Assembly: GCF_003730135.1 (NCBI RefSeq)
Contig: NZ_RJVO01000003.1
Coordinates: 310,001-374,000 of the forward strand
Direction: 5' to 3'
Length of the DNA stretch: 64,000 nt
Origin: Stagnimonas aquatica
GTDB taxonomy: Bacteria > Pseudomonadota > Gammaproteobacteria > Nevskiales > Nevskiaceae
Positions 2,987 to 64,000 of this stretch are shown piece by piece. A program made the translations under genes and the position numbers. Position 1 is the first letter of the stretch. Every line of letters starts with the position of its first letter. The notes below the pieces were generated by a model, which ran no database searches, was not told where the DNA came from, and saw nothing but the letters and a program-made list of their open reading frames with translations.

Positions 2987-3014
2987 TGCGGTCAGTAAGG
3001 CAGTAGGGGACGGC

Positions 3015-3935
3015 CTATTGTCTCACAGGGTCGCGGCTGCCCAGCCAGGCCAGGGCGCCGGCGGCGAGCGCCACACCCAGCACCAGCAGATGCAGGTTCA
3101 CCGCCGCCGCCAGCAAGGCCGGACTCGGCGCTGCGAAGGGCGAGACCAGGGCGATCACGCCGGCCTCGTAGGTGCCGAAGCCGCCGGGGGTGTGGATCGG
3201 CAATACCGTAGAGAGATCGCCACCGATGGCCCCCAGCAGCGCCTGCGCGGCGGGCAGGCTGGCGAGCAGCGCGAACACCGCTGCCAGTGCCGCCAGCTTG
3301 ATGCTCCAGGCGCTCCAGCTCAGCAGCAGGTCCAGGCCGACCTGGGCGCTGCGCTGCGGCACGCCGCCCAGCAGCCGGCGCAGCAAGCGGGCGCCGCCGT
3401 TCTCGCGGCCGGCCAGCAGCCGCGCCATACCGCGCTGCACCGCCGGTGCCAGCAGCGGCAGGCCGGCGATCAGCAGCGCCGTCGCGTACCAGCCGCCGGT
3501 GCCGGGCGCCGCCCACAAGCGCGGCCCCAGGGTCGCGGCGGCGAGGCTGGCCAGCACATTGAGATCGAGCAGTCGCAGCCACAGCAGGGTGCCGGCGCCG
3601 TGCGCCAGATCGACGCCGAACCAGCGTTGCAGCAGCAGCGGGAAGCTGGCCTCGCCGGTGCGCGCCGGCAGGATCAGGTTCAGCGCGTTGTTGAGCAGGA
3701 TCAGCCGCAGGCAGTCCAGCCAGCGTCCGCGCGGGATCGCCGGCTCGGCGAGGTAGACCCGCAGCGCGCGCAGCGAATAGCTGGCGAGCTGCGCCAGCAC
3801 CACCAGCAGCACCAGCGCCAGCGGCACCGCCGACCAGGGCGCGAGCAGCCGGGCGAAGCCCCACCAGTGCTCGATGGCCCAGGCGAACAGCAGCAGCACC
3901 GCGAGTTGCGCGAGATAGAGCAGGGAGCGTTTCAA
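3015..3935 (-). CDS. Lysylphosphatidylglycerol synthase TM-like (UPF0104) membrane protein
   Basis: 306 residues with 7-8 hydrophobic segments. It begins MKRSLLYLAQLAVLLLFAW and has the motif HTPGGFGTYEAGVIAL near residues 235-255, the PGGxGxxE signature of the AglD/MprF transmembrane family. The aminoacyl-transferase domain of MprF is absent. Family members have been implicated in lipid flipping or lipid-linked sugar metabolism. It is the first gene of the minus-strand cluster (28 bp before the GT2 gene), so a role in moving or supporting the lipid-linked donor is a reasonable inference. Confidence 0.75.
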   Translation of the reverse strand: MKRSLLYLAQLAVLLLFAWAIEHWWGFARLLAPWSAVPLALVLLVVLAQLASYSLRALRVYLAEPAIPRGRWLDCLRLILLNNALNLILPARTGEASFPLLLQRWFGVDLAHGAGTLLWLRLLDLNVLASLAAATLGPRLWAAPGTGGWYATALLIAGLPLLAPAVQRGMARLLAGRENGGARLLRRLLGGVPQRSAQVGLDLLLSWSAWSIKLAALAAVFALLASLPAAQALLGAIGGDLSTVLPIHTPGGFGTYEAGVIALVSPFAAPSPALLAAAVNLHLLVLGVALAAGALAWLGSRDPVRQ

Positions 3936-3984
3936 AAGTACGGGGCGGCGGCAGGCGAGCGCGCATCTTAGCCCCGCCTCCCGC

Positions 3985-4090
3985 TATAAACTGTGGGCAT
4001 GAGACGCTTTGCTTCCCCTTTGTTGCCATTGTGCGTGGTCTCATGCCGGCGACGGCTCGCCACGCTACGATCCCCACGCGCCGCGTGGGG
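3985..4090 (+). promoter_or_regulatory. dnaX leader: -10-like box and two inverted repeats
   Basis: TATAAA at 3985-3990 resembles a -10 box reading toward dnaX; I see no good -35. Just downstream is a perfect 10-bp inverted repeat, GGCATGAGAC (3996-4005) and GTCTCATGCC (4038-4047). A second hairpin, CCCCACG-CGCCG-CGTGGGG, lies at 4072-4090, about 25 nt before the dnaX start. Neither has a T-tract. I checked for 4.5S RNA, which sits upstream of dnaX in some relatives, and its conserved core is not present. Confidence 0.5.
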
Positions 4091-4114
4091 CCCCTCCACG
4101 CTGCTCGCGTCGCC

Positions 4115-5815
4115 ATGAGCTACCTAGCCCTCGCCCGCAAATACCGTCCCCGCCGCTTCGAAGACGTGATGGGCCAGGCGCATGTCGTCAAGGCGCTGAG
4201 TCACGCCCTGGACCACGACCGCCTGCACCCGGCGATCCTGCTCACCGGCACCCGTGGCGTCGGCAAGACCACGCTGGCGCGCATCATCGCCAAGGGCCTC
4301 AACTGCGAGACCGGCGTCACCAGCCAGCCCTGCGGGCTGTGCGGCAGTTGCAAGGAGGTCGATCAGGGCCGCTTCGTCGATCTGCTGGAGATCGACGCCG
4401 CTTCCAACACCGGCGTCGATGACGTGCGTCAGGTGATCGAGAACGCCCAGTACGCGCCGGCGCGCGGCCGCTACAAGGTCTATCTGATCGACGAAGTCCA
4501 CATGCTCAGCAAGGCCGCCTTCAACGCTCTGTTGAAGACGCTGGAAGAGCCGCCCAAGCATGTGAAGTTCATCCTCGCCACCACCGACCCACAGAAACTC
4601 CTGGTGACGGTGCTGTCGCGCTGCCTGCAATTCAACCTCAAGCGCCTGCCGCAATCGCTGATCCGCGAGCAGATCGCCAAGGTGCTGACCGAGGAGGGTC
4701 AGGGCTTCGAGCCCGGCGCCCTGGCCGAGCTGGCACGCTCCGCCGATGGCTCCATGCGTGACGCGCTCTCGCTCACCGACCAGGCCATCGCCTTCGCCGG
4801 CGGCGGCACCCTGCAACGCGAGCCGGTGGAGGCGATGCTCGGCACCAGCGGCCGGCGCAGCCTGTTCGAGCTGCTGGCGGCGATTGCCGGCGACGACCGC
4901 GAGGCCCTGCTGAGCGGCATCCAGCGCCTGGAAGAGCAGGCCCCGGACTACGCCGCCCTGCTCAGCGAGCTGGCCGCGCAGTTGCAGCGGCTGGCGGTAT
5001 TGCAACTGCTGCCCAAGGCGCAGAGCGAGGACGACGACCCGGCGCTGATCGAGCTGAAGAGCCGGTTCGCGCCGGAAGACCTGCAACTGCATTACCAGAT
5101 CGCAGTGCTCGGCCGCCGCGATCTCGGCTGGGCGCCGGACCCGCGCATCGGCTTCGAGATGACGCTGCTGCGTATGCTGGCGTTCCGGCCGGAAACGCCG
5201 GGGCCGGATGGTCAGGGTCCGCGCCGGGCCGAGTCCGCCACCGCCGCTGGCGCGGGGGCTCGCATTGCTGGCGCTCCCGCCGCCGCCGCGCCGCGCGCCC
5301 CGGTCGCCAGCCAGGCGCAGCCCGCGCCCCAGACCCGCGCGCCAGAGCCGGTGGTGTCGGCCCCGCCCAAGCCCAGCCTGCCTGCCGCTTCCGCACCGGT
5401 CGCGGAGCCGCCCGCCGTGGCGGCGGAGCCGCTGGCCGCCGATGCCAGTTGGAGCATGCGCATCGCCGCCCTGCGCCTGGACGCGATGGTCAAGCAGTTG
5501 GCGCTCAACTGCGCCTGGACCGCCCACGAAGGCGAGGTGCTGCGGCTGACGCTGGACTCCAAGGTGAAGCATCTGCTCACCGAGGAGCGGCGCCTGAGCT
5601 TGCAGAAGGCGCTGTCCGAGCAACTGGGGCAGAGCCTCCAGCTCGCCATCGACCTCGGCATCGGCAGTCTCGATACCCCGGTGGCGCAGGCCCTGGCCCA
5701 GGTCGATGCCCGTCAGAAGGCGGCCGAGGCCAGCATCGAGCAAGACCCGGCGATACGCGCCTTCCGCGAGCAATTCGGCGCCCTGCTGCGCCAGGGCAGC
5801 ATCCGCCCCCTCTAG
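4115..5815 (+). CDS. dnaX: DNA polymerase III subunit gamma/tau
   Basis: 566 residues from ATG 4115 (MSYLALARKYRPRRFEDVMGQ), the usual DnaX beginning; an open frame extends upstream to 4031 but looks non-coding. Clamp-loader AAA+ motor: Walker A GTRGVGKTT, zinc-binding cysteines PCGLCGSC, Walker B YLIDEVHML, and the SRC arginine-finger motif in LSRCLQF. A Pro/Ala-rich linker (about residues 380-450) precedes the tau C-terminal domain that binds the polymerase. I saw no AAAAAAG slippery site, so a separate gamma form by frameshifting is not supported. First gene of the conserved dnaX-ebfC-recR cluster. Confidence 0.97.
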   Translation: MSYLALARKYRPRRFEDVMGQAHVVKALSHALDHDRLHPAILLTGTRGVGKTTLARIIAKGLNCETGVTSQPCGLCGSCKEVDQGRFVDLLEIDAASNTGVDDVRQVIENAQYAPARGRYKVYLIDEVHMLSKAAFNALLKTLEEPPKHVKFILATTDPQKLLVTVLSRCLQFNLKRLPQSLIREQIAKVLTEEGQGFEPGALAELARSADGSMRDALSLTDQAIAFAGGGTLQREPVEAMLGTSGRRSLFELLAAIAGDDREALLSGIQRLEEQAPDYAALLSELAAQLQRLAVLQLLPKAQSEDDDPALIELKSRFAPEDLQLHYQIAVLGRRDLGWAPDPRIGFEMTLLRMLAFRPETPGPDGQGPRRAESATAAGAGARIAGAPAAAAPRAPVASQAQPAPQTRAPEPVVSAPPKPSLPAASAPVAEPPAVAAEPLAADASWSMRIAALRLDAMVKQLALNCAWTAHEGEVLRLTLDSKVKHLLTEERRLSLQKALSEQLGQSLQLAIDLGIGSLDTPVAQALAQVDARQKAAEASIEQDPAIRAFREQFGALLRQGSIRPL

Positions 5816-5869: not shown

Positions 5870-6193
5870 ATGAAAGGCCCCATGGCCCAGATTCTGGCGC
5901 AAGCCCAGAAAATGCAGGACAACGTCAAGCGCGCGCAGGACGAGATCGCCCGGCTGGAGATCACCGGCGAAGCCGGGGCCGGCATGGTCAAGGTCACGCT
6001 CACCGGCAAGCACCAGGCGAAGAAGGTCGAGATCAATGCCGACGCCCTGACCGAGGACAAGGAATTTCTCGAAGACCTGATCGCCGCCGCCATCAACGAC
6101 GCCGCCCAGAAGCTGGAAGCGGCGACCCAGGCGAAGATGTCGGCGGTCACCGCCGGCATGCCCATCCCCCCAGGCATGAACCTCGGCTTCTGA
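5870..6193 (+). CDS. ebfC: YbaB/EbfC nucleoid-associated protein
   Basis: 107 residues with the family core [23 protein letters not shown], [11 protein letters not shown], then the C-terminal [14 protein letters not shown]. The protein is a small homodimeric DNA-binding protein with tweezer-like coiled-coil arms. CCAGGAGAATCC gives a ribosome site before ATG 5870. It sits between dnaX and recR, as in most Gammaproteobacteria, and is probably cotranscribed with both. Confidence 0.95.
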
Positions 6194-6203
6194 TCGGACC
6201 CGC

Positions 6204-6803
6204 ATGACCGCTTATTCGCCGCGCCTCGGCCGGCTGATCGAGGCATTGCGTCGCCTGCCGGGCGTCGGTCCGAAGTCGGCGCAGCGCATGGCGCTGCATC
6301 TCTTGCAGCGCGACCGCGAGGGCGCGGAGTACTTGGCGCGCGCGCTCGGTGAGGCGCTGAGCGGCATCGAGCGCTGCCCGCGCACGCGGATGTTCTGCGA
6401 ACCGGCGCACTGCGGCTTCTGTAGTGCCTCGCGCGCCAAGGCCGGCCAGCTCTGCGTGGTGGAAAACCCGGCCGATCTGATCGCCATCGAAAACAGCACG
6501 CCCTATCGTGGCCGCTACTTCGTGCTCGGTGGCCGGCTCTCGCCCCTGGACGGCATCGGCCCCGAGGCGCTCGGTCTGGATCTACTTGCCGAGCAACTGG
6601 CCGACGGCACGGTGCAGGAGCTGATCATCGCCACCAACCCGACCGTCGAAGGCGAGGCCACCGCCCACTACATCGCCGAACTGGCACGCGCCCGCAACGT
6701 CAAGGTGACGCGCATCGCCCACGGCGTGCCCATGGGCGGCGAGCTGGAATACGTCGATGGCGGCACGCTCAGCCACGCTTTCGCGGGCCGGCAATTGCTG
6801 TAG
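6204..6803 (+). CDS. recR: Recombination mediator RecR
   Basis: 199 residues: N-terminal helix-hairpin-helix [18 protein letters not shown], zinc finger region (about residues 54-72), then the Toprim domain ([25 protein letters not shown]) and the Walker-like [18 protein letters not shown]. RecR forms a ring with RecO/RecF partners and helps load RecA at gaps. The zinc finger is unusual: it reads [16 protein letters not shown], so the second cysteine of the first CxxC pair is Thr and an extra Cys lies four residues later. Starts 10 bp after ebfC. Confidence 0.96.
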
Positions 6804-6829
6804 CTGCGCCCGGCGCCGCGCCAGCCCGC

Positions 6830-8730
<1,901 letters not shown>

Positions 8731-8753
8731 TTACGCGACGAGGTGCGATTGCC

Positions 8754-10157
<1,404 letters not shown>

Positions 10158-10273
10158 GCGGCGAGGGGCGGATGACCTTTGGTCGGGATGGCAGATGATT
10201 CCATCGGCAGGCCTGCGCCGAGAGCGGGTTTGCGACTAGGCTTGCCGCAGAAGAACACGCCAGGAGGCACTCC

Positions 10274-11599
10274 ATGTTCCGCAGCTCCGCTCGCAAGCCC
10301 GAACCCGTCGCCGTTGCGCTGCCGCCGGCCTATCTGACCGTCTATGCCGCCGAGGCTGGCCGTCACGATCCGCATCTGGCGCCGGGACTGGAGTCGCTGC
10401 TGCCGCCGGGCACCCGCTACGAACTGGCCGCGCCGCCAGAGCCGCAGCGCGAGGGCACGCCGCTGATCCCCGCCTCCTCCGAATTCGTGGTCAGCCTGTT
10501 CCTCGATCCCGAACAGCTCGACGGCATCGCCGACAAGGTGCTGGCGGCGCGTTCCGGCGGCCGCCACAACAGCCTGGTGATCGTCATCAACGGCCGCCAG
10601 TTCGGCGCTCTTGGCCGCTGGCTGGAGCGGCGCAGTTCCGCCGGTCGCCTGGCCGGCGTGCATCTGATGGTGGCGCGCGATGTCTCCGATGCCCTGGCGC
10701 AACTGCCACGGCGGCTGAGCCCGGTGGTGGAAGACAATCTGATCCGCATGCCGACCTCCACCGAGATCGACAACCCCGGCTACAAGAGCTTCTACATCTT
10801 CAGCCCGGAGCTGCACGCGGTGGTGGCGCGCATCCGTGCCTTCGCCAAGAACGGCGTCAGCCGCGCCTATCTGCTCGGCGGCCCCGGCAGCGGCAAGACC
10901 TCGCTGGCCTTCTACTACTTCCTGGTGCGCAACAAGGGTCGCTTCGTGTCGGTGAACCTGGCGGCGGAAAACACCGGCGACAAGGCGGCGATCAAGTCCC
11001 TGCTCTGCGGCCACGTCTCCGGGGCCTTCCCCGGCGCTGGCGGCCGCACTGGCGCCTTCTCGCATGCCCGCGACGGCGTCTGCTTCCTGGACGAGGCGCA
11101 CGGCGTCACCGGCGCGGTGATGGAAACCCTGATGGAAGCCCTGGACAACGGCCAGTACCTGCCGTTCGGCGCCTCCGCCAAGCAGTCGCTGGACTGCGCC
11201 CTGCTGTTCGCCACCAACCGCAGTTGGGAGCATTTGCGCAACTCGGTGAACATCGACGAATTCACCCGCCTGGGTGCGGCCACCATCTCGGTGCCGGAAC
11301 TGCACCGGCGCGAGGAAGACATGATCGCCGTGGTCGCCGCCAATCTCGCCAAGCTGGGTTCGCGCTGCACCAGTTGGCGGGCGCCGGAGGGCTTGTCGGA
11401 ACCCGCCTGGCAGGCGATCCGCGACTGCCGCTGGCATGGCAATGTCCGCGCCCTGACCCGCGTGCTGGAAGCGGCCTTCGTCGATTCCGCCATGCGCGAG
11501 GACTCGCGCGGCCTGCTGGAGCTGGACGATGTCCGCAACGGCATCGCGCTCTGGGAGCCGGCGGACCACCATAGTCACGCGGTCTACGCCTCCAACTGA
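10274..11599 (+). CDS. Sigma-54 activator-like AAA+ ATPase without a DNA-binding domain
   Basis: 441 residues. The N-terminal 170 residues are not recognised; the AAA+ domain then has Walker A GGPGSGKTS (202-210), a loop GAFPGA (250-255) in the place of the GAFTGA sigma-54 contact loop, Walker B VCFLDEAH (269-276), sensor I FATN (312-315), an arginine finger near R332, and a lid with WHGNVRALTRVLE. The C-terminus ends about 35 residues later with no Fis-type helix-turn-helix. It therefore looks like a bacterial enhancer-binding-protein motor that either works through partners or has been put to another use. AGGAGG precedes ATG 10274. Neighbours are the two fumarase genes. Confidence 0.75.
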   Translation: MFRSSARKPEPVAVALPPAYLTVYAAEAGRHDPHLAPGLESLLPPGTRYELAAPPEPQREGTPLIPASSEFVVSLFLDPEQLDGIADKVLAARSGGRHNSLVIVINGRQFGALGRWLERRSSAGRLAGVHLMVARDVSDALAQLPRRLSPVVEDNLIRMPTSTEIDNPGYKSFYIFSPELHAVVARIRAFAKNGVSRAYLLGGPGSGKTSLAFYYFLVRNKGRFVSVNLAAENTGDKAAIKSLLCGHVSGAFPGAGGRTGAFSHARDGVCFLDEAHGVTGAVMETLMEALDNGQYLPFGASAKQSLDCALLFATNRSWEHLRNSVNIDEFTRLGAATISVPELHRREEDMIAVVAANLAKLGSRCTSWRAPEGLSEPAWQAIRDCRWHGNVRALTRVLEAAFVDSAMREDSRGLLELDDVRNGIALWEPADHHSHAVYASN

Positions 11600-11698
11600 C
11601 AGGGCTGTGGCGGCCGGCTGCCATTCCGGAGCCGGCCAAGTCGGTGGCATTTCGGTAGGATGCGCGCCTGCCGAAAACCACCCGCCAGACGCCCAGCC

Positions 11699-13231
11699 AT
11701 GAGCACCATCCGCCAGGACGACTTCATCCAGTCGATTGCCGACGCCTTCCAGTACATCAGCTACTACCACCCGCTGGACTACATCCAGGCGCTGGGCGAG
11801 GCCTACGAGAAGGAAGAGTCACCGGCGGCCAAGGACGCGATTGCGCAGATCCTGACCAATTCCCGGATGTGCGCCGAGGGCAAGCGCCCGATCTGCCAGG
11901 ACACCGGCATCTGCGTGGTGTTCCTCAAGGTCGGCATGAATGTGCGCTGGGACGCGACCTTGAGTGTGCAGGAGATGGTCAACGAGGGCGTGCGCCGCGC
12001 CTACCTCAATCCCGAGAACAAGCTGCGCGCTTCGGTGCTGGCCGACCCGGCCGGTAAGCGCAGCAACACCAAGGACAACACCCCGGCGGTGATCCACTAC
12101 GAGATCGTCCCCGGCGATCACGTCGAGGTAACCTGCGCCGCCAAGGGCGGCGGCAGCGAGAACAAGTCCAAGCTGGTCTGCCTCAACCCCAGCGACTCCA
12201 TCGTCGATTGGGTGCTGAAGACCGTGCCGACCATGGGCGCCGGCTGGTGCCCGCCCGGCATTCTCGGCATCGGCATCGGCGGCACGCCGGAGAAGGCGGC
12301 GGTGATGGCCAAGGAGGCGATCATGGCGCCGGTGGACATCCATCTGGTCAAGGCCAAGAAGGCGCGCGGTGAAACTCTCACCAAGGTCGAGGAACTGCGC
12401 CTGGAGCTGCTGGAGAAGGTCAACGCGCTGGGCATCGGCGCCCAGGGCCTGGGCGGCCTGACGACCGTGCTGGACGTGAAGATCATCGACTACCCGACCC
12501 ACGCCGCCAGCCTGCCGGTGGCGATGATCCCCAACTGCGCCGCCACCCGCCATGTGCACTTCGAGCTGGACGGCTCCGGGCCGGCGAAGCTGGAAGCGCC
12601 GAAGCTGGAAGACTGGCCGCAGGTGACCTGGGCGGCCGATACCAAGACCTCCACCCGGGTCAATCTCGATACCCTGACGCCGGAAGAAGTGGCGAGCTGG
12701 AAGCCGGGCCAGACCCTGCTGCTCAACGGCAAGATGCTCACCGGCCGTGATGCCGCCCATAAGCGCATCCAGGACATGCTTGCCAAGGGCGAGAAGCTGC
12801 CGGTGGACTTCACCAACCGCGTCATCTACTACGTCGGCCCGGTCGATCCGGTGCGCGACGAGGCGGTGGGCCCGGCCGGCCCGACCACGGCGACGCGCAT
12901 GGACAAGTTCACCGAGATGATGCTGGCCAAGACCGGCCTGATCGCGATGATCGGCAAGGCCGAGCGCGGCCCGGTGGCCATCGAGGCGATCAAGAAGCAC
13001 AAGAGCGCCTACCTGATGGCGGTGGGCGGCGCCGCCTACCTGGTGTCGAAGGCCATCAAGTCGGCCAAGGTGCTGGGCTTCGAGGACATCGGCATGGAAG
13101 CCATCTACGAGTTCGAGGTGGTGGACATGCCGGTGACCGTGGCGGTCGATGCGCAGGGAACTTCCGTGCACGAGACCGGGCCCAAGCTCTGGCAGGGCAA
13201 GCTCGCGGGCATCCCCGTGGTCTCGGCCTGA
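11699..13231 (+). CDS. fumA: Fumarate hydratase class I (iron-sulphur)
   Basis: 510 residues from ATG 11699 (MSTIRQDDFIQSIADAFQ). It is a fused alpha-beta class I hydro-lyase: the alpha part has ICQDTGICVVFLKVG and CAAKGGGSENKSKL, and the beta part has GKMLTGRDAAHKRI and GPTTATRMDKF. A 4Fe-4S cluster at conserved cysteines (including those near ICQDTGIC and CLNPSDS) catalyses fumarate hydration; tartrate dehydratase is a lesser possibility. An upstream in-frame ATG at 11660 is unlikely because the extension is Arg/Pro-rich. dsbB follows after 33 bp. Confidence 0.93.
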   Translation: MSTIRQDDFIQSIADAFQYISYYHPLDYIQALGEAYEKEESPAAKDAIAQILTNSRMCAEGKRPICQDTGICVVFLKVGMNVRWDATLSVQEMVNEGVRRAYLNPENKLRASVLADPAGKRSNTKDNTPAVIHYEIVPGDHVEVTCAAKGGGSENKSKLVCLNPSDSIVDWVLKTVPTMGAGWCPPGILGIGIGGTPEKAAVMAKEAIMAPVDIHLVKAKKARGETLTKVEELRLELLEKVNALGIGAQGLGGLTTVLDVKIIDYPTHAASLPVAMIPNCAATRHVHFELDGSGPAKLEAPKLEDWPQVTWAADTKTSTRVNLDTLTPEEVASWKPGQTLLLNGKMLTGRDAAHKRIQDMLAKGEKLPVDFTNRVIYYVGPVDPVRDEAVGPAGPTTATRMDKFTEMMLAKTGLIAMIGKAERGPVAIEAIKKHKSAYLMAVGGAAYLVSKAIKSAKVLGFEDIGMEAIYEFEVVDMPVTVAVDAQGTSVHETGPKLWQGKLAGIPVVSA

Positions 13232-55770: not shown

Positions 55771-58068
55771 TCAGTGGGTGAAGACCTGAAATGCCGGGCC
55801 GGCCCAGGCGGTGCCGGAGTTCGCCGGCGCTGGTGGCAGGGGAGTACCGCCGTAGATCACCTGATTGAGCGGCCCTTGATAGGTTTGCCAGGGGATCGTG
55901 CCTTGCTGGCTGACGCCGGGCTTGCTGTAGTCGCAGACGCCCTCCGGGAACACCGCAGACAGACTTGCCCACTGCGCGTCGGTGAACGGCAACAACCCGT
56001 AGTCGTCATTGCGGTCCAGCGGCTTGAGCTGGCATTTGTTGGTGTCGGTGCTGATGGCGTCGCCGGCCACCGTGCGGGGGGTGCCATACACCGGCACGAT
56101 CAGCTCGGGACACAGGCCCGCACTAATGCGCTGGCCGAGGCCGTCATAGCAGGCGTCAACGACGTTGGTCGGCTTGTGGGTCGTCAGCTTCAGGGCGAGC
56201 GGCATCGGGCTCAGGTCTTGCTCGACGGCGGCCAGCCAGGCGTCCATGGCGGCAAAGCTGTTCCGCGCGCACTCGTTGTCGCCCATGATCAACAGCGGTC
56301 CCTCCCAGATCACCTGGTTGTCGTGATTGCCATGCTCGCGGTCGAGTCGGGCGCGGATCGCGAAGGCGCGGTACGCATCGTGAAAGGCGCCGGGGTCAGG
56401 GCCTCGGCAGTCGATGATGGCGGTTTGGTCGAGGTTGTTGGTTTCGTTGATCAGGCCGGTACGGTAGGCGTTGGCGAGGGCCGGTTGCGCCGCAGGCGTG
56501 CGCGAGGGGATCGGCTTGGTGTCGATGTCGAGTCCACCGATGGCGACGTTCAGATCGACGAACTGCGCGGGCAGGATCAAGCCGGCGCGCAGGGCTCCGA
56601 GCCCGTACTGCACCCCGACGTTATCCACCGGGAAGCCGGCGAATCCCCGCCCAAGCTGCTTCTCAACTTCACCCCAATCCTCCGGCTGGCGCGGTCCGAG
56701 GAGGTTGATCGCGGCATCCATCACCGTGCAACGGACACCGGCCGGATTGTTGGTGGGGTGATAGCGGGTTTCGTCGGTGGTGCCGCCGCAGGGATCGGTT
56801 GCCACGGCCACATGGAACTGGGCGTTTTCGCTGACGATCGCGTTCAGCAACGAGAGGTGTCCCATGACGTCGCCCATTTGCGTGGGCAACCACAAAACGC
56901 CCGCGCCCCAGCGTGAGGGATCCTGAAAGTAGGCGAGTAACAGATGGTAGTCGGCGAACTGGGTGGCGGTGCTCCAGGCATCGGGAAACGAGCAGGTCGG
57001 CAGAATCCCCTGGTAGATCCCCGGATAGGCGTTGGAAATCCACTGCATGGCGAGCGAGCCGCCGGAACAGCCCTGGCCGATGGTGTAGCGCAGGTCTCCG
57101 TACTGCTCGACGACCCGCTCCTTGGCCATGACCAGGGACTCCGCCTGCAAGGCGACGTTGCAGTTGTGGGAGCTGTTGTCGAGTGCCGTCGACATCACTG
57201 CAAAGCCCTTGCCGAGCGCCACCTCGGTGGCGTCGGTCAATACCTCGACCAAGGGCAAGCCGATGGGTAGCTGGCCGCCGACCACTGGAATCGCGGTGCC
57301 GGCCCCCGGGGCCACCGCCGGCGCCGAGGCCGTCTGGTATTCCACCCCGCAGCCGAAGCCGTGGTTGATCACCAGCTTGTGGTTGAACTGCGGTTGCGGC
57401 TCCGTCGCCGTCCAGGCTTGGTCGACCTGGTAGAGCGCCGCGATCTGGTACTGGTCGCGGTCCATGTAGCCGGTTTCGATGCGGACGATGAACGGCAGGG
57501 TCAAGCCGTTCTCGGTGGTGATCTGGGCGACATCGGTGGGCGGATTGCCGGGGTCGTAGGTCTGCATGCCGGCCTTGAGCGGATTGCTCGACTTGTACGC
57601 ATAGCGGTACTCGACCGGCTGATTGCACTGGGCGTCCACCGCGCCGGAGTTGCGGCAAAGCCAGGGCATCAGCTGCGGACCGCTGAACACCGGCCCGCCC
57701 GCAGGATGGTTGACGATCGTGGTGGCCGCGCTACCGCCGGGAAAGCGGGCGACGACGGCATTGGCCCCAAGCTCGAGTCCAGTCAACAGGCTCCCGAGCT
57801 GTCCATTCGGCATCCGCTTGAACGTCGCGGGCGACGATTTGCCATTCAGGCTGAGACTGACGGCTTGTGGCTCGACACCCGCCGGCGCCGCGAAGGCGAC
57901 CAGAGCGTCGCCGCCGCTGATGAGGTCCGCGCGGTTGGAGAGCACCGACATCGGCAGACTTGAGGGGTCAGAACCCGAGGGGTCGGAATTCAGCGGGGGA
58001 GCGCTGTTGCCACAGCCGCCGAGGACGATTGCTGCCGCCAGTACCGCTGATCTGAGATGCCGGTGCAT
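55771..58068 (-). CDS. DUF6351 lipoprotein with serine-hydrolase motif
   Basis: 765 residues from ATG 58068, with AGGAG just upstream; an in-frame ATG at 58086 lies before the ribosome site. Lipobox VLGGC (Cys19). The core resembles an alpha/beta hydrolase: LVINHGFGCGVEYQTASA, then GQGCSGGSLAM (331-341), where Ser335 is the likely nucleophile, like the GCSxGG of tannase/feruloyl esterases. A conserved GNHDNQVIWEGPLLIMGDNE lies later. The substrate is unknown; a secreted esterase role is inferred. Starts 72 bp from the CocE gene stop on the same strand. Confidence 0.75.
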   Translation of the reverse strand: MHRHLRSAVLAAAIVLGGCGNSAPPLNSDPSGSDPSSLPMSVLSNRADLISGGDALVAFAAPAGVEPQAVSLSLNGKSSPATFKRMPNGQLGSLLTGLELGANAVVARFPGGSAATTIVNHPAGGPVFSGPQLMPWLCRNSGAVDAQCNQPVEYRYAYKSSNPLKAGMQTYDPGNPPTDVAQITTENGLTLPFIVRIETGYMDRDQYQIAALYQVDQAWTATEPQPQFNHKLVINHGFGCGVEYQTASAPAVAPGAGTAIPVVGGQLPIGLPLVEVLTDATEVALGKGFAVMSTALDNSSHNCNVALQAESLVMAKERVVEQYGDLRYTIGQGCSGGSLAMQWISNAYPGIYQGILPTCSFPDAWSTATQFADYHLLLAYFQDPSRWGAGVLWLPTQMGDVMGHLSLLNAIVSENAQFHVAVATDPCGGTTDETRYHPTNNPAGVRCTVMDAAINLLGPRQPEDWGEVEKQLGRGFAGFPVDNVGVQYGLGALRAGLILPAQFVDLNVAIGGLDIDTKPIPSRTPAAQPALANAYRTGLINETNNLDQTAIIDCRGPDPGAFHDAYRAFAIRARLDREHGNHDNQVIWEGPLLIMGDNECARNSFAAMDAWLAAVEQDLSPMPLALKLTTHKPTNVVDACYDGLGQRISAGLCPELIVPVYGTPRTVAGDAISTDTNKCQLKPLDRNDDYGLLPFTDAQWASLSAVFPEGVCDYSKPGVSQQGTIPWQTYQGPLNQVIYGGTPLPPAPANSGTAWAGPAFQVFTH

Positions 58069-58140
58069 CGATTTTCTCCTAGCCAATGTGGATCGCCGTC
58101 CGGTTGACAGCGGACGGAAGTGGGATGAGGGCTTCGCGGC

Positions 58141-60060
58141 TCAGCGCGGCAGCGTCAGTGCGTCGGTCGGCACCACCGGCAGCACCAGGCTGGAGCGGTG
58201 CTCGCCGTCGCTATGGACCGTCAGCGCGCCGGCGGCGCTGGCCAGCAGCAGCGGCGCGGGTGGCAAACCACGAGGGAAGTCGCTTGATCCGATGGAAATG
58301 CGGAGACGATGGCCGGCGCGGATCAGCGCGCTGGTGGGAAAGATCTCCACCGAAACCGGGACGATTTCTCCGGCTTCGACGTGATCGGCGCTCGCCGAGG
58401 TATAGCTCAGCCAGGGCTGCAACAACTCGCCATCCAGCCGGCGCGAGCGGGCATCGTCCACGGCGCGCGCCGACAGCATCTGCAGCCCGCTGGTCAGCGG
58501 CTGGATCCCGGCCTCGCTGACATCGTCGACCCGTACCGACAAGCCGGCGTCCCGCGCCGTCGTCGATACCCAGAGCGTCGCCAGGATGGGGCCGTTGACG
58601 TAGATGTCCTCGGCCATCGGATCCGTCTGGTATTGCAGTTCCAGCGTCTCCGCGAAGCGGTTGTCGGTGAGGCAGGGCAGCGGCAGATTGCCCGCCAGGC
58701 CGGCTGTCCACTGCACGGTGCTGGCCGAGCAGAGGCCGCCCAGCGGGTACTGGATCGTGGTGCGGCTGGTTTCTGCGGCCCCGGGTGCGTCCTCGGTGAG
58801 GCGCTGGTCGCCGCGCAGGTACAGGCGTCTGGCCGTGGCGCGCGGATGCGGCCAGTCCTCGCTGCTCACGTAGTGGTCGAAGCCCTGGACGTACTGGGTG
58901 ACGTTCGGCAGCCTGTCGGCGCCGGTGTCCAGACCACGCAAGTAATGATCGAACCACTGCAAGGCGATGTGCTCCAGCGCCGGCACCCCATCGGCTGGCA
59001 GGCCGGCACCCAGCTTGGTGTGGGTCCAGGGGCCGATCAGCAGCTTGGCCTCCCCGTGTTGCTGGATGGCTTCGTAGAGCAGCGGCTCGCCGCGCTGGAA
59101 GATGTCCTGCAGGCCGCCGAGGATGAAGGTCGGCACCGTGATCTGCGCCGCATGCTCGATGGGGGAGCGGCTGCTCCAGAACGCGTTGTCGTACACGGTG
59201 TCGTCGTCGCCGAGCAGCGCCTTGAGCAGGAACGGAACCTCCTGCCGGGTAAGCGCATGCCGCAACTGTCCGACGGTTCTTGGCAGGCCGGTGATGGGGT
59301 CTGCCAGGGTCTCGGGGTTGAGTGCCGACCCACCCATGACCAGAAGAAACCAGGCGGGGATGAAGCTGAGGCTGGTCTGGCCGCCGGCGAAAACGATGTC
59401 GCGATAGGCGTCCGCCATCGGCACTTTCAGGAAGGCGGTCTTGACGGCGGGATGTTGTTTCGAGGCGGCGAGGGCGGCGGTGATGCCCAGCAGCGATTCG
59501 CCATAGAGCCCGATGTTGCCGTCGCAGAAGGGCTGTGCCGCCACCCAGTCGAGGATGGGACGGTAGTCCGCCTGCTCGACGGGGCCGAACATGTCCCAGT
59601 CGCCTCCCGAAGAGCCGGTTCCACGGACATCGACCAGAACCTCCGCATAGCCGTGGCGCCCCAGAAAGGCGCTGACCGGGGTGTTGCCGGGCAGGTTCTT
59701 GTTGTAGCCGGTGAGGGTGACCAAGGTGGGCAAGCGGTCTTGGACGCGATTGCCGTTGGCGTCGGCCGGCAGGCTGACGGCCGCGGAAAGTACGGTTCCG
59801 TCGGCCATGACGATGCTGTGCTGACTGGTGCTTTGACCGGCAAATCGCTCGGCCGGGAGGTAGTCCTGCCAGGCCCCTGCGCCGCGCCAGCCTGCGCCAC
59901 TCCTGGCCGCGCCCTTGTCCGCCGCAGGCGCCGCACGGGTTCCCAGCGTGCTCCATCCAGACAGCCCTGGTGTCCCTGGATCCGGTCTGCCGTCTTGCGG
60001 GTTGGGTAGCGCCGACTCGCCGCAAGCCGCCATCGACAAGCTCAGCACCGCGATCTGCAA
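58141..60060 (-). CDS. CocE/NonD-family hydrolase lipoprotein
   Basis: 639 residues from TTG 60060, preceded by GAGGAG at 8 bp; the frame is open to TTG 60174. Lipobox SMAAC near the N-terminus. The X-Pro dipeptidyl-peptidase/cocaine-esterase fold: DVRGTGSSGGDW, nucleophile GESLLG (about 187-192), acid Asp in GGLQDIFQRGE, and His in GPWTHTKLG (about 343). A C-terminal jelly-roll domain follows. It cleaves acyl esters or amides of unknown type. Cotranscribed with the DUF6351 gene. Confidence 0.85.
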   Translation of the reverse strand: MQIAVLSLSMAACGESALPNPQDGRPDPGTPGLSGWSTLGTRAAPAADKGAARSGAGWRGAGAWQDYLPAERFAGQSTSQHSIVMADGTVLSAAVSLPADANGNRVQDRLPTLVTLTGYNKNLPGNTPVSAFLGRHGYAEVLVDVRGTGSSGGDWDMFGPVEQADYRPILDWVAAQPFCDGNIGLYGESLLGITAALAASKQHPAVKTAFLKVPMADAYRDIVFAGGQTSLSFIPAWFLLVMGGSALNPETLADPITGLPRTVGQLRHALTRQEVPFLLKALLGDDDTVYDNAFWSSRSPIEHAAQITVPTFILGGLQDIFQRGEPLLYEAIQQHGEAKLLIGPWTHTKLGAGLPADGVPALEHIALQWFDHYLRGLDTGADRLPNVTQYVQGFDHYVSSEDWPHPRATARRLYLRGDQRLTEDAPGAAETSRTTIQYPLGGLCSASTVQWTAGLAGNLPLPCLTDNRFAETLELQYQTDPMAEDIYVNGPILATLWVSTTARDAGLSVRVDDVSEAGIQPLTSGLQMLSARAVDDARSRRLDGELLQPWLSYTSASADHVEAGEIVPVSVEIFPTSALIRAGHRLRISIGSSDFPRGLPPAPLLLASAAGALTVHSDGEHRSSLVLPVVPTDALTLPR

Positions 60061-60384
60061 CGCCCGAACTCCTCGGGAACGCCGTTCGCGGCGGCCTCCG
60101 GCACGCGGAAGCCCAGATCGCGGAAACAGCGCCGCAGCGGCGCGGGGGCCAAGACTCACCGGGACTCTCTCCAAGCAGCACAGCGGCTGCTGAGCAGCCT
60201 GCGATTAGTTATTGGGTCACTGCACTGCGGACAGCGCCCGCGTGAGTGATCCGTTCTGCCGCGCTCGCGCCCAGGCTTGCAGGCCGGGGACTGACGCGGG
60301 GCGGCATTCTTTCAGTCCGACGACTCAGCCGCAACTGCCCGCCGTAGCCCCGGGCACAGGGAAAATTCTGGCGGAGGTACTCGC
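60061..60384. other. Intergenic region upstream of the CocE-family gene
   Basis: 324 bp with no supported gene. It holds a perfect 7-bp inverted repeat, GGCTGCTGAGCAGCC (60185-60199), next to AT-rich GATTAGTTATTGGGTCAC. That combination is a candidate operator-promoter for the minus-strand hydrolase genes. The rest shows nothing recognisable. Confidence 0.5.
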
Positions 60385-61431
60385 TCAGCCGGAGCTTTCG
60401 GCGGCGACCGGCCCGAGCGAGATGCGCCGGAATGCGCTGGGAGATTGGCCGGTCCACCGGCGGAAGGCGCGGGTGAAGTTGGCGGGATCGCCGTAGCCGA
60501 TGCGGCGGGCGATCTCCTCGATGCCCAGGGTCGGGTCGGCAAGCAGGTCGAGGGCGTCGCGGCGGCGAACCTCGTCGAGCAGCGCCTGGAAGCTCAGGCC
60601 GTGATCCTGCAAGCGGCGCTTGAGCGTGCGGCTGGAGACATGCAGGGCGGCCGCCAGCTGTTCGAGATCGGGATATTCGCCATTCCGGCCGACCAGCAGG
60701 GCGCGCACCTGCACCAGCAGATCCTTGGCATAGCCGAGCCGCGACAACTCCTGCTCGCACTGCCGGGTCACCAGCTGCGCGGTGATCGGATCGGCGGTCC
60801 GCAGCGGCAGATCCAGCACCCGCGCCGGGAAGCGCAGCTGGTTGGCGGGCATGGCGAAGCGCGCCGGCGGCAAGCGGTCTCGGTAGCGGGCGTAGTAGGC
60901 GGGCTCGGGCGTGTCGAAACAGAGTTCGGCGCGGTTGCGCATCTCCTCCGGCGCGAAGTAGTTGGCCATCTGCCAGATCCCGACCAGGAACAGATCCAGC
61001 ATGCATTGCCGCACGCTGCCCAAGGGCAGGGTTTCGCGCACTTCGATCACCCCCTGCTCGCCGTCCTCGAACAGTCGCAGGCTGAGATTGGGCAGCCGCA
61101 GTTGCAGGAAGCGGGCGCCGAAGCCGACGCCTTCGCGCAGGCTGCGGTGGCTCATCAGGCCGTAGCCGATGAAACCGTGGGTGGTAAGGCCGCTGTGCAG
61201 GCCGATCTCGTAGCCCAGCGCCGGGTTGCCGCTGCGGCGCAGCGCCCGGTACAGCAAATTGTTGGCCTGCAGCATCGACAGCCGCGCTTCCGGGTTGTCC
61301 AGCAGCTCCGGGGCTATGCCCTGGCCGTCGAGCAGGCTCTCGGCGGAGACCCCGAGCTTGCCGGCGACTTCCAGGATCAGCCGGCCGTAGGCCACGGGTA
61401 CAGCCGGCTTGTGCAGGTCTTCCAGCTTCAT
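60385..61431 (-). CDS. AraC-family transcriptional regulator
   Basis: 348 residues from ATG 61431. The C-terminal double helix-turn-helix is LEQLAAALHVSSRTLKRRLQ and IEEIARRIGYGDPANFTRAFR, then RWTGQSPSAFRR. The N-terminal half resembles the arabinose-binding-like domain of the OruR/ArgR group (NPEARLSMLQANNLLYRALR). It is divergent from the RoxA-like cytochrome gene across 150 bp, a control region with inverted and direct repeats, and likely regulates that gene. Confidence 0.9.
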   Translation of the reverse strand: MKLEDLHKPAVPVAYGRLILEVAGKLGVSAESLLDGQGIAPELLDNPEARLSMLQANNLLYRALRRSGNPALGYEIGLHSGLTTHGFIGYGLMSHRSLREGVGFGARFLQLRLPNLSLRLFEDGEQGVIEVRETLPLGSVRQCMLDLFLVGIWQMANYFAPEEMRNRAELCFDTPEPAYYARYRDRLPPARFAMPANQLRFPARVLDLPLRTADPITAQLVTRQCEQELSRLGYAKDLLVQVRALLVGRNGEYPDLEQLAAALHVSSRTLKRRLQDHGLSFQALLDEVRRRDALDLLADPTLGIEEIARRIGYGDPANFTRAFRRWTGQSPSAFRRISLGPVAAESSG

Positions 61432-61449: not shown

Positions 61450-61568
61450 GCCACGGGGGCGTGGCCCGATATGACAGCCATCTTGGCATCTTGGCCCCTC
61501 ACGCTGCAAAGCCGGGCGCGCCAAGATGCCTCGTGCAACGGCCAGCCAGGGAGACGGCGTGCCGTCTC
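61450..61568. promoter_or_regulatory. Divergent control region of the AraC and cytochrome genes
   Basis: Three structures. GCCACG-GGGG-CGTGGC at 61450-61465. A direct repeat CATCTTGGC (61479 and 61487, sharing one base), whose second copy extends to GGCATCTTGGC (61485-61495); its exact inverted copy GCCAAGATGCC lies at 61520-61530. GAGACGGC-GT-GCCGTCTC at 61551-61568 ends 13 bp before the cytochrome start and its GGGAGAGAG ribosome site. Direct repeats of this size suit an AraC-type operator. Confidence 0.7.
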
Positions 61569-61581
61569 GGGAGAGAGAACG

Positions 61582-64000
61582 ATGAACAACAACTGGACCA
61601 CCCCTGCGGTGGTCACGGCGCTGGGTCTGGTCCTGGCAGCCTGTTCGGGCAACTACCAGGGCACGGTCGATGCCGCCGGCGGTGGCAACCCCGGGGGCGG
61701 CAGCTTTGCCGACGACAAGGCGTACTTCGCCGGACGGGTGCAGTCCAAGCTGGATTTCTGCCGGACCTGCCATCTGCCCGGCGGCGTGGCCGACACCGCC
61801 GAAGGCCGGCGCTTCATGCTGACCGCCGACCGCAGCCAGGACTACGCCCAGCTGCGGCAGTCCTGGGAAACACTCGGTCGCGGCGTCGACGGCAACCGGA
61901 TTCTCACCAAGGCCTCCAACACCGACTCCCAACCGCATTCCGGCGGTGCGCCCTGGCCCAAGGGCAGCGCCGCTTACTCGGCGATGCGTGTCCTGCTCGG
62001 CTGCTGGGACAGCCCCGGCGCCTGCGCCGGCCTGATCGCCGGCGATGGCGGTGGCCCGGCCGTCGAGGAGCAGGCCCTGCTCGGCAACCCGGGCAAGCAC
62101 TACTTCGTCAACCAGCTCTGCGACGGCGCGCCGGACAACACGGTCATCGACTGGCAGGCCGATCCGCGCCGTTTCATGCTCCAGAGCAGCGGCAACATCG
62201 ACAACGACCAGTACGCCGTCCACTTCAACGATCCCTTCGAGATCTGCCACACCGAGACGCTGTTCGAGAACCAGGCCAAGCAGAACGAACTGCGGCTGGC
62301 CGCCGGCAAGACGCCGATCCACACCGCCAAACCCTATGCCGCGACCTGCGGCGAATGGCGTGCGCGGGTGAAGGAAGGGCATGACTGGATCGCCTACTCG
62401 CCCACCAATTCGCCTCGCAATGGCAGCGGCGGTGGCGGCATCGGCGGCAGCGATGCCCAGTCCTGGAACAAGCTCTGGCAGGTTTGGGGCTATTCGCAGC
62501 GGCCGGACAACTTCGACTCCCAGGTTTCCGAGCGCTACGGCCACTCGCCGACCCCGCCGCGCCCTGGCAGTGCGCCGGGCAGCTACGAGTACGAGTACCC
62601 GAATCCGTATCCGGTGATCGACAGCGCCAAGGGCATTGACGAGACCAAGCTGCTCAGCAAGACCTTCGGCGGCACCGGGCGTCTGCCGCTGGGCTATGCC
62701 CAGGGACGTGATGCCGACGGCGTCTATAACGGCCAGCTAGGGCTCAACTGCTTCAGTTGCCACGCGGGGCAGATCGGCGAGGGCGAGGTAGCCGGCCGCG
62801 ATGGGCTGCGGCAGGCGTTCAGCTACGGCAGCAACTCCGACGGCAGCTTCATGGGGCTGCCCAATACCGACACCGAACTGGGTGTGCTGATCGTCGATCT
62901 GATCCACGCCCAACAGCCGTTCAACCTGCACCTGCCGCCGGTGGGTTACCTGCCGCTGGTCAACACCACCCGCGGCAGCAATGCCGCCGATACCGAGATC
63001 GAGGCGATCGTCGCGATCCGCGATTTCGACACCCTCAACTTCAACCACGCCTTCGTCGACCCCGCGCACCCGAGTTACGGCGACCAGGACCCACCGGCCT
63101 GGTGGTGGCTGCACAACAAGTCGCGCTATCTCTGGTTCGGCGGCCACAGCACCGACTCCTCGCGCGGCAACATGTACTTCGGCAGCGTCAACAGCCTCAG
63201 CGGCGACGACGTGCTCAACAACGAGGGCATCTTCGAGAGCGTGCACGACTGGTCGCTGACGGTGGAGGCGCCGGACTACCCGCAGGGCTATTGCAGCGGC
63301 AGCGACGGCAGCCCGGCGCCGGGCGACAAGGAGGGCTGCATCAACCGGCCACTGGCCGAGCAGGGCGCGATCCTGTTCCACGAAAAAAACCTCTGGGCCG
63401 ACGGCAAGAACGCCGACATCCCGCAGCCCAAGGGCAATGGCGCCTGCGCCGGCTGCCACGGTGCCTATTCGCCGCGCTACGCCAACGACAAACGCTTCCT
63501 GCCCGATCCGAAAATGATCGGCCTGGCCGGCTATACCGTGCCGATCGAGATCATCGGCACCGATCCGGCGCAGGCGACCGGCTGGGCGAAGAACATCCGT
63601 GGCTTCGTCAGCACCTTCTGGTGGTCCTACCCGGATGCCCAGCCCAACTACCGCTTTCCCGAGAACAAGGATCCGCTGACCGAGTTCCTAGACGACTACT
63701 CCGGCTACGTTGACGGCCTCACCAACGGCCCCGCACTCGCCGACCAGCTCGGCCGCAATCTCGACGGCATGGGCCTGCTGCAACCGTTAGGCGATGTGCT
63801 GACGAGCGTGCTCGGCGCCACCTTGCCGCTGATCGCGCCGATCCCGGCCAGCGAGACCATGGGCCGGGTGAAGGGTGCCTGCGGCTTCGAGGAAAAGACG
63901 GTGGGCTATGTGACGCCGCCGCTGCACGGCGTCTGGGCCAGCGCGCCGTACTTTCACAACGGCTCGGTGCCCACCGTCTGGGACGTGCTCAAGCCGAGCG
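61582..64000 (+). CDS. RoxA-like c-type cytochrome with three CxxCH sites (partial)
   Basis: At least 806 residues from ATG 61582; it runs off the right edge. Signal/lipobox region VTALGLVLAACSGN. Haem sites are CRTCH (60-64), CFSCH (390-394) and CAGCH (622-626). The end TPPLHGVWASAPYFHNGSVPT carries the MauG/CcpA-type APYFHNGS motif shared with RoxA/RoxB rubber oxygenases, which are dihaem c-type cytochromes. The first haem site is extra relative to RoxA. The oxidised substrate is unknown, and a di-haem peroxidase-like enzyme is an alternative. Secreted or periplasmic; AraC gene divergent. Confidence 0.75.
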   Translation, partial: MNNNWTTPAVVTALGLVLAACSGNYQGTVDAAGGGNPGGGSFADDKAYFAGRVQSKLDFCRTCHLPGGVADTAEGRRFMLTADRSQDYAQLRQSWETLGRGVDGNRILTKASNTDSQPHSGGAPWPKGSAAYSAMRVLLGCWDSPGACAGLIAGDGGGPAVEEQALLGNPGKHYFVNQLCDGAPDNTVIDWQADPRRFMLQSSGNIDNDQYAVHFNDPFEICHTETLFENQAKQNELRLAAGKTPIHTAKPYAATCGEWRARVKEGHDWIAYSPTNSPRNGSGGGGIGGSDAQSWNKLWQVWGYSQRPDNFDSQVSERYGHSPTPPRPGSAPGSYEYEYPNPYPVIDSAKGIDETKLLSKTFGGTGRLPLGYAQGRDADGVYNGQLGLNCFSCHAGQIGEGEVAGRDGLRQAFSYGSNSDGSFMGLPNTDTELGVLIVDLIHAQQPFNLHLPPVGYLPLVNTTRGSNAADTEIEAIVAIRDFDTLNFNHAFVDPAHPSYGDQDPPAWWWLHNKSRYLWFGGHSTDSSRGNMYFGSVNSLSGDDVLNNEGIFESVHDWSLTVEAPDYPQGYCSGSDGSPAPGDKEGCINRPLAEQGAILFHEKNLWADGKNADIPQPKGNGACAGCHGAYSPRYANDKRFLPDPKMIGLAGYTVPIEIIGTDPAQATGWAKNIRGFVSTFWWSYPDAQPNYRFPENKDPLTEFLDDYSGYVDGLTNGPALADQLGRNLDGMGLLQPLGDVLTSVLGATLPLIAPIPASETMGRVKGACGFEEKTVGYVTPPLHGVWASAPYFHNGSVPTVWDVLKPS

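Follow-up and report, generated by a model that had tools for sequence, protein, structure and literature searches.

The rubber oxygenases RoxA and RoxB and the related RoxC group are the closest described relatives of the protein treated here. The RoxC group was published by Prakash et al. (2024) with 243 sequences, in comparison to 117 of RoxA and 98 of RoxB (PMC10837239), which makes it the most numerous of the three Rox groups in print; no function has been assigned to it. RoxCs are described there as mostly lipoproteins, and a substantial number of them carry a third haem at the N terminus. Two members, from Fontimonas (three haems) and Oceanococcus (two haems), were expressed and had no activity in rubber oxygenase assays; after purification both were fully ferric and did not take up O2 in a latex-dependent manner, which section 7 of that paper gives as unpublished. 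The same authors proposed unsaturated fatty acids as RoxC substrates, and theirs was the sole paper found in a literature search for RoxC with rubber. Here we analysed a stretch of 64,000 nucleotides of Stagnimonas aquatica (the window; contig NZ_RJVO01000003.1, G000:C3:310001-374000), at the end of which lies the gene of a large multihaem protein (the window protein). On its sequence features this is a predicted three-haem lipoprotein of the RoxC group, with a catalytic half homologous to RoxA, and it is encoded directly upstream of genes for DUF4266 and DUF3570.

These two neighbours belong to a second described system. In PMC8238504, DUF3570, DUF4266, a thioredoxin-like protein and ApbE (in some cases with DsbD) are reported to cluster, experiments on one DUF3570 showed that ApbE flavinylates it at two [S/T]GA[S/T] motifs, and the role of the system is called uncertain. 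The terms rubber, RoxA, rox and MauG have 0 occurrences in the main text of that paper, and the gene-cluster link between Rox and DUF3570 genes, not found in print, is new as far as the literature was searched. The link joins two 'function unknown' families into a single testable hypothesis, and the adjoining predicted flavin-based electron supply suggests a reason for the apparent inactivity of the RoxC group.

The Rox gene starts with an ATG at position 61582 (+ strand), runs past the window edge (61582..64000) and stops at 64404 (L002:4404). The window alone covers 806 residues; the tail was recovered from the same contig, with extrapolated numbering past 64000, and the complete product has 940 amino acids and a computed isoelectric point (pI) of 5.1. 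Among the NCBIfam models, the RoxC model NF051462 matched the protein over its full length (residues 1-940 against model positions 1-812) with 910.2 bits and E 1.1e-273, above the cut-off of 900. The RoxB model (411.9 bits in two pieces, cut-off 900), the RoxA model (390.6 bits, cut-off 1000) and the di-haem cytochrome c peroxidase model NF040606 (100.5 bits, cut-off 150) all stayed below their cut-offs, and an ordinary di-haem peroxidase was rejected on the last of these scores. The RoxA structure 4b2n was the sole significant match in the PDB (E 1.5e-85) and spanned the catalytic part.

A first-pass annotation, made from the letters of the window, had described a lipoprotein-like protein of at least 806 residues with CxxCH sites at residues 60, 390 and 622 and a terminal APYFHNGSVPT motif, and this description was exact. 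Its assignment to the RoxA superfamily, with an added N-terminal haem domain and a lipoprotein anchor, is supported by the models, 4b2n and the lipobox. Neither the additional haem site at the N terminus nor the tethering is new, as both have been published for RoxCs (PMC10837239). The predicted lipoprotein signal peptide (61582..61644) ends in the lipobox LAAC, found by pattern matching, with Cys21 at 61642-61644 as the first residue of CSGNYQG; most RoxC members have such a lipobox signal. The N-terminal (third) haem site CRTCH occupies residues 60-64 (61759..61773), and His119 (61936-61938) is the candidate second ligand of this haem; the combination of a third N-terminal CxxCH and a second His is that of a substantial number of RoxC members. 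The catalytic domain holds CFSCH at residues 390-394 (62749..62763), equivalent to RoxA His195 in the alignment to 4b2n, and CAGCH at residues 622-626 (63445..63459), equivalent to RoxA His394. The MauG-type motif APYFHNGSVPT with His792 follows at residues 788-798 (63943..63975), and His919 aligns with the RoxA distal ligand His641. All these features are on the + strand. With a degenerate DNA pattern for APYFHNGS, 1 match was detected in the whole genome and 0 with the reversed control. Together with the E values of the RoxC model and 4b2n, this puts the features far beyond chance.

The lipobox and the three CxxCH sites set the protein apart from RoxA, which is secreted, has no lipid anchor and carries two haems. 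Two RoxA residues are nevertheless kept: Trp518 (63133-63135) corresponds to RoxA Trp302 and Phe533 (63178-63180) to Phe317 in the alignment to 4b2n (segment 63133..63180, + strand). Loss of both has been reported as a trait of putative RoxCs, without being a curated criterion, and the window protein does not share it. According to PMC6797691, Phe317 stabilises O2 on the haem, and RoxA is crippled when this residue is replaced; PMC4496055 describes Trp302 as a bridge for electrons between the haems.

To place these residues, 72 Rox proteins were gathered from loci of the order's genomes, and 71 of them together with RoxA entered a tree of the catalytic part (LG+G4, quick search, Shimodaira-Hasegawa-like approximate likelihood ratio test (SH-aLRT), rooted on RoxA alone); the truncated G026_C24_2 was left out. 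The window protein fell within a separate clade of eight (SH-aLRT 99), together with proteins of the genomes G003, G037, G005 and G030. G003 is a metagenome-assembled genome of Stagnimonas, with an orthologue that is 84% identical to the window protein. Trp and Phe stand at RoxA positions 302 and 317 in 6/8 clade members and Trp and Pro in the remaining two, whereas the canonical RoxC clade has Phe or Tyr at 302 and Ala at 317 in 25/25 rows, as in both inactive proteins of Table 1 in PMC10837239. The Trp and Phe assignments were repeated in independent alignments. Trp, Phe and three haems occur together in 9/71 Rox proteins, with six of the nine in the window protein's clade. A separate clade of eight, six of them keeping both RoxA residues that canonical RoxCs lost, is new as far as searched.

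The third clade of the tree (35 rows) is RoxB-like, and several of its three-haem members exceed the RoxB cut-off. One such protein is encoded in a second DUF3570-Rox cluster of the same genome (G000:C4:147001-167000, L041, about 5952-12710), where TlpA-like, DUF4266 and DUF3570 genes are followed by a tandem of two three-haem RoxB-like lipoproteins; the first of these reached 922.7 bits, above the RoxB cut-off, despite its lipoprotein nature and third haem.

The first CxxCH is conserved in all eight members of the window protein's clade, so the extra haem site proposed in the first-pass annotation held in the orthologues. Three CxxCH sites were found in 57/71 Rox proteins (the window protein counted), with at least seven changes on the tree. 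The equivalent of His119 is present in 59/59 N-terminal domains, in rows picked for CxxCH and not for His119. No PDB relative was detected by sequence for the N-terminal haem domain or for DUF3570 (best E 1.7 and 0.24). In two genomes, G039 and G046, the N-terminal haem domain has a lipoprotein gene of its own, not far from a RoxC with two haems; this split is new as far as searched. The N-terminal part of this separate lipoprotein is the RoxC haem domain (in G046 it matches NF051462 positions 13-153 with 147.8 bits), and a second CxxCH is added. Its gene heads a DUF4266-DUF3570-ApbE-TlpA run, which overlaps directly into the RoxC gene in G046 and has the RoxC gene about 1.4 kilobases (kb) further on in G039. 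That the haem domain is fused in some genomes and a separate neighbour gene in others argues that it works together with the catalytic part, with the flavin module between them. A different kind of change was seen at L062 (G034:C16, RoxC at 2347-4869), in which the His of the first CxxCH is replaced by Pro and close orthologues keep the His; this loss of an N-terminal haem ligand may be natural or a sequence error.

The informative neighbours of the Rox gene are just outside the window edge. The small DUF4266 lipoprotein gene (64422-64646, + strand, extrapolated; L002:4422-4646) has its ATG 17 bp past the roxC stop, and a GTG start would overlap roxC. The C-terminal end of its product is GGGGCGCN, and the tail CGCN gives the C-terminal CXC expected of DUF4266. 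The DUF3570 gene (64646-65833, + strand, extrapolated; L002:4646-5833) overlaps the DUF4266 stop by one base, and its product has both flavinylation motifs, as SGAS, and a C-terminal Phe. We counted as short-type DUF3570 the copies with 158-218 bits to PF12094 (G040 from contig-end fragments). Both [S/T]GA[S/T] motifs are present in 27/28 short-type copies, this one included, when two contig-end or stretch-end fragments are left out; the exception, in G005, has one. Thirteen of the 28 open reading frames (ORFs), again including this one, end in Phe and four more in Phe-Glu. A C-terminal Phe is typical of outer-membrane barrels, and DUF3570 is probably such a barrel.

Longer versions of the module were found in relatives. 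In G005 the full run is TetR-like, TlpA-like, DUF4266, DUF3570, ApbE and RoxC, the last being a canonical RoxC. In G003 the DUF4266-DUF3570 pair lies between the orthologue of the window protein and, further on, genes of a RoxB-like protein and a canonical RoxC. TetR and some TlpA-like assignments were made by eye or with tblastn, and one TlpA-like protein was Pfam-tested. In the window's own genome a TlpA-like match was detected at the second DUF3570-Rox cluster on G000:C4, and the region G000:C3:223987-225703 has another DUF3570 type beside ApbE and a DUF4266-like ORF, a possible source of flavin transferase for the window's DUF3570.

The association of the two families was determined among 61 relatives. 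RoxC-model matches at E 0.001 or better occurred in 25/61, of which 23 were counted as real (G002 and G020, with at most 59 bits, were excluded), and one genome had 14 matches, some of them pieces. Short-type DUF3570 was present in 22/23 RoxC genomes in comparison to 4/38 others (Fisher p 1.4e-11, the relatives not being independent). Of the 22 genomes having both, 15 have a copy no more than 5 kb from a Rox gene; random placement gave an expectation of 0.34 and never more than 5 genomes in 200,000 draws. By locus, the fetched stretch included a Rox gene for 16 short-type modules, 8 had a DUF1592-type cytochrome and/or DUF1552 in place of Rox, and 5 had neither, in genomes with Rox elsewhere (L058 and L059 were counted as one module). 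In a class-wide draw 32/369 genomes matched the RoxC model, with matches below 100 bits not counted as RoxC, and only three (G000, G039, G097) exceeded 500 bits, which indicates that the RoxC group is centred on the order of the window organism. All three have a DUF3570 within 3.4 kb of a RoxC, and in G097, which is outside the order, a Rox gene with three CxxCH sites is divergent from DUF4266-DUF3570-ApbE. As the DUF3570 family is common, with 95/369 class-sample genomes having it, its presence alone is not the signal. A scan of genome contigs gave 2 loci, and a plasmid search gave 5 records with short matches only. Rox genes are expanded in G030 (L035-L040, L066) and G037 (G037:C1:403001-440000; L045, L046), which have 14 and 10 model matches, respectively; they often form tandems and adjoin genes that are TetR-like by eye. 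Seven Rox loci also hold DUF1302-type genes, of which one was tested against Pfam.

From the observed domain content, conserved candidate ligands, gene order, flavinylation motifs and linkage we infer, as the best explanation overall and with a probability of about 45%, a surface oxygenase or peroxidase that is supplied with electrons by a flavinylated DUF3570 barrel. The window protein would be located at the outer membrane. Electrons would pass from periplasmic thiols of a thioredoxin-like protein and DUF4266 to covalently bound flavin mononucleotide (FMN) on the barrel, from FMN to the bis-His N-terminal haem, and from there via the Trp518 bridge to the catalytic di-haem core. They may reduce, or re-reduce after autoxidation, the haem that binds O2 or peroxide, and this haem would oxidise an extracellular substrate that is hydrophobic and unsaturated. 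The order roxC-DUF4266-DUF3570, with hardly any gap between the genes, supports this reading, and the all-ferric, inactive state of the purified RoxCs is as expected of an enzyme without its reductant. The first-pass annotation had suggested electron input as the role of the extra haem; this is still the favoured role, to which the gene cluster adds evidence, with electrons presumably flowing towards the catalytic core.

Several observations weigh against this reading. No match to TlpA or ApbE, which the described clusters contain, was found at the window protein's own locus; the three copies of ApbE elsewhere in the genome count in favour of the reading. In 7/22 genomes every Rox gene is more than 5 kb from the short DUF3570, and the relatives in the linkage counts are not independent. 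Among the Trp and Phe members of the clade, 2/6 have a DUF3570 within 5 kb, namely the window protein and its orthologue in G003 of the same genus. No short DUF3570 was detected on the fetched 20-kb stretch for G005, G037 and two of the G030 members, and for one G030 copy it is 14 kb away. The link is therefore strong for Rox genes overall and thin for this clade alone. In the alignment RoxA Phe301 corresponds to Leu517 and Ala316 to Tyr532, and RoxA with F301L is reported to retain 14% activity (PMC6797691). The ferric, inactive state of the two purified RoxCs fits their Ala at 317 equally well, and this residue alone could explain it. RoxA as isolated already binds O2 on ferrous haem without a third haem (PMC10837239), so the extra haem need not mean electron input. 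The predicted structure of the 84%-identical orthologue, from a three-row alignment, had a mean predicted local distance difference test score (pLDDT) of 26.9, which supports no claim, haem distances included.

It is somewhat unlikely that the protein is a dioxygenase of fatty acids or other lipids, or an oxidase of membrane lipids as suggested for RoxCs, that needs no external electrons, with DUF3570 being incidental or serving another step. PA2077 and PA2078 of Pseudomonas aeruginosa (oleate-diol synthase, FadCcp) are described as RoxA-related di-haem fatty-acid enzymes (PMC4496055), unsaturated fatty acids are the substrates suggested by Prakash et al. (PMC10837239), and the retained Phe317 and Trp302 equivalents, like the 4/6 Trp and Phe clade members without DUF3570 within 5 kb, would agree with such an enzyme. 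The general linkage of Rox and DUF3570, however, is far above chance and includes a genome outside the order, and a lipid dioxygenase leaves the extra haem domain unexplained. The protein might instead be a CcpA-type H2O2 peroxidase at the surface, with the flavin module as its electron source, that protects the cell or uses outside peroxide. Such an enzyme would account for an electron supply and shares the di-haem core; we consider it unlikely, as the match to the di-haem peroxidase model is weak (100.5 bits) and stays under the cut-off, and the O2 site has the Phe of RoxA, which lacks peroxidase acid-base catalysts at this site (PMC6797691).

The electron flow may also be reversed. The window protein would then be the oxidant of an outside substrate, or a terminal metal reductase, and electrons would pass through DUF3570. 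PMC8238504 notes that a reversed direction is conceivable in principle and reports an iron transporter in 25 DUF3570 clusters, and a TonB receptor lies about 6 kb upstream (113.9 bits to a siderophore-receptor model, below the cut-off of 223.5). This receptor was not found beside clade members in other genomes, however, and the RoxA-like O2 pocket would be superfluous, which makes reversed flow improbable. Very improbable is a role like that of MauG, in which the protein would act as a tailoring enzyme on its neighbours (the Gly/Cys tail of DUF4266, for instance) and not on an environmental substrate: a MauG-family core adjoining a small conserved protein would suit it, but genomes can have many Rox matches (14 in G030), and on other stretches DUF4266-DUF3570 modules stand with no Rox gene.

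A C-x-G-[DN]-Y-x-G tag that starts at the lipidated Cys is shared by many of the Rox and neighbouring cytochrome lipoproteins, in the window protein at 61642-61662. The DNA pattern gave 23 matches in 10 genomes and 20 with the reversed control, and the raw count was rejected as proof of a sorting signal. Only the position of the tag after a lipobox is informative: 15/23 matches come immediately after one (by reading), and each of the 15 belongs to a large cytochrome lipoprotein, 12 of the Rox and 3 of the PSD/DUF1592 type. G030 had one strict match, although it is rich in Rox genes. A looser tag was found on 22/99 lipobox ORFs of the fetched loci, which had been chosen around Rox genes (18 Rox, 1 haem lipoprotein, 2 DUF1592-type and 1 doubtful 110-residue ORF). 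A CBM2 domain is present in 3/4 PSD/DUF1592-type proteins (G038:C5, G042, G045:C73), and G038:C14, available in part only, shows none; when two DUF1592-type proteins (G038, G042) were tested against Pfam, this cellulose-binding domain was detected in both. These results suggest, without proof, that the tag is a shared signal for surface sorting or docking and that the substrates are polymers outside the cell. At L086-L093 (G045, G038, G048, G003, G042, G031, G019, G008) the short DUF3570 module has no Rox gene nearby and is combined with DUF1552 and/or a cytochrome lipoprotein of the DUF1592 type. A wider scheme, which we regard as doubtful, would be a flavin-to-haem relay in the outer membrane (TlpA-like protein, DUF4266, ApbE-flavinylated DUF3570 barrel) that powers large cytochrome lipoproteins of the surface, which would be interchangeable. 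In some clusters these would be Rox-type tri-haem oxidases acting on hydrophobic substrates, in others PSD/DUF1592-type cytochromes, several with CBM2. Both kinds can bear the C-x-G-[D/N]-Y-x-G tag as a possible sorting or docking signal, and the window clade would be distinguished by its RoxA-like O2 site.

Upstream, a divergent AraC-type regulator of 348 residues (60385..61431, - strand; PF12625 plus helix-turn-helix by Pfam) recurs beside clade members, with identities of 74% in G003, 55 and 45% in G037, 48-51% in G030 and 45% in G005. The G005 copy is on the same strand as the Rox gene, and the last G030 copy is a weak match (33% over 160 residues). The first-pass annotation had taken the neighbourhood, with two lipoprotein hydrolases, an AraC regulator and a TonB receptor, to suggest a surface system that degrades a hydrophobic or polymeric substrate. 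The regulator was confirmed with tblastn as a recurring neighbour; the hydrolase/TonB island was rejected, as DUF6351, CocE/NonD hydrolase, TonB receptor and RIO kinase had no match at the clade-member loci in G003, G037, G030 and G005 (tblastn, E up to 1e-15). Weak TonB-receptor matches (28-33%) were seen at two loci of other Rox clades and nowhere else. The two hydrolase genes, for a DUF6351 protein (tannase-like, 710 bits; 55771-58086, - strand) and a CocE/NonD hydrolase (58141-60174, - strand), stand side by side and are both lipoprotein-like, and the pair is not conserved alongside the Rox gene. A homologue of the AraC-type regulator (36%) also adjoins an overlapping tandem of two di-haem peroxidase-family proteins at L042 (G000:C4:1001-21000, 6981-10863), of 643 and 653 residues with 502 and 473 bits to NF040606, an arrangement like that of PA2077/PA2078.

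The window protein is a member of the published RoxC group, in a distinctive clade and with a gene-cluster link. With RoxA of Steroidobacter cummioxidans 35Y (4b2n) it shares the catalytic di-haem core, the His ligands, Trp302, Phe317 and PYFHNGSVP; it differs in its low RoxA-model score, lipid anchor and third haem, in CFSCH instead of CSxCH, and in Leu and Tyr at the positions of Phe301 and Ala316. With RoxB and LatA it has the CxxCH of haem 1 and the Phe317 equivalent in common, and it matches the RoxB model only in pieces and below the cut-off; according to Table 1 of PMC10837239, RoxB 35Y lacks the lipobox and the third haem of the window protein and carries Val at position 302. PA2077/PA2078 are alike by description in being RoxA-related di-haem enzymes on hydrophobic substrates, and differ in being periplasmic with two haems.

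The RoxC group itself is matched by the full-length model hit, lipoprotein signal, two catalytic CxxCH sites and HNGSVP motif, by the third N-terminal CxxCH with a second His, and by the acidic pI, with 5.04 and 4.63 given for RoxCs in Table 1 of PMC10837239. The window protein is barely above the RoxC cut-off (910 vs 900), falls in a separate clade, has the Trp302 and Phe317 equivalents that are lost in both characterised RoxCs, and is longer than the model (940 vs 812). The DsbD/TlpA-DUF4266-DUF3570-ApbE flavinylation system of PMC8238504 is recognised in the CXC tail of DUF4266 and in the DUF3570 with both motifs directly downstream of roxC, and some relatives of the window protein have its full gene set; the difference is that it is joined here to Rox cytochromes.

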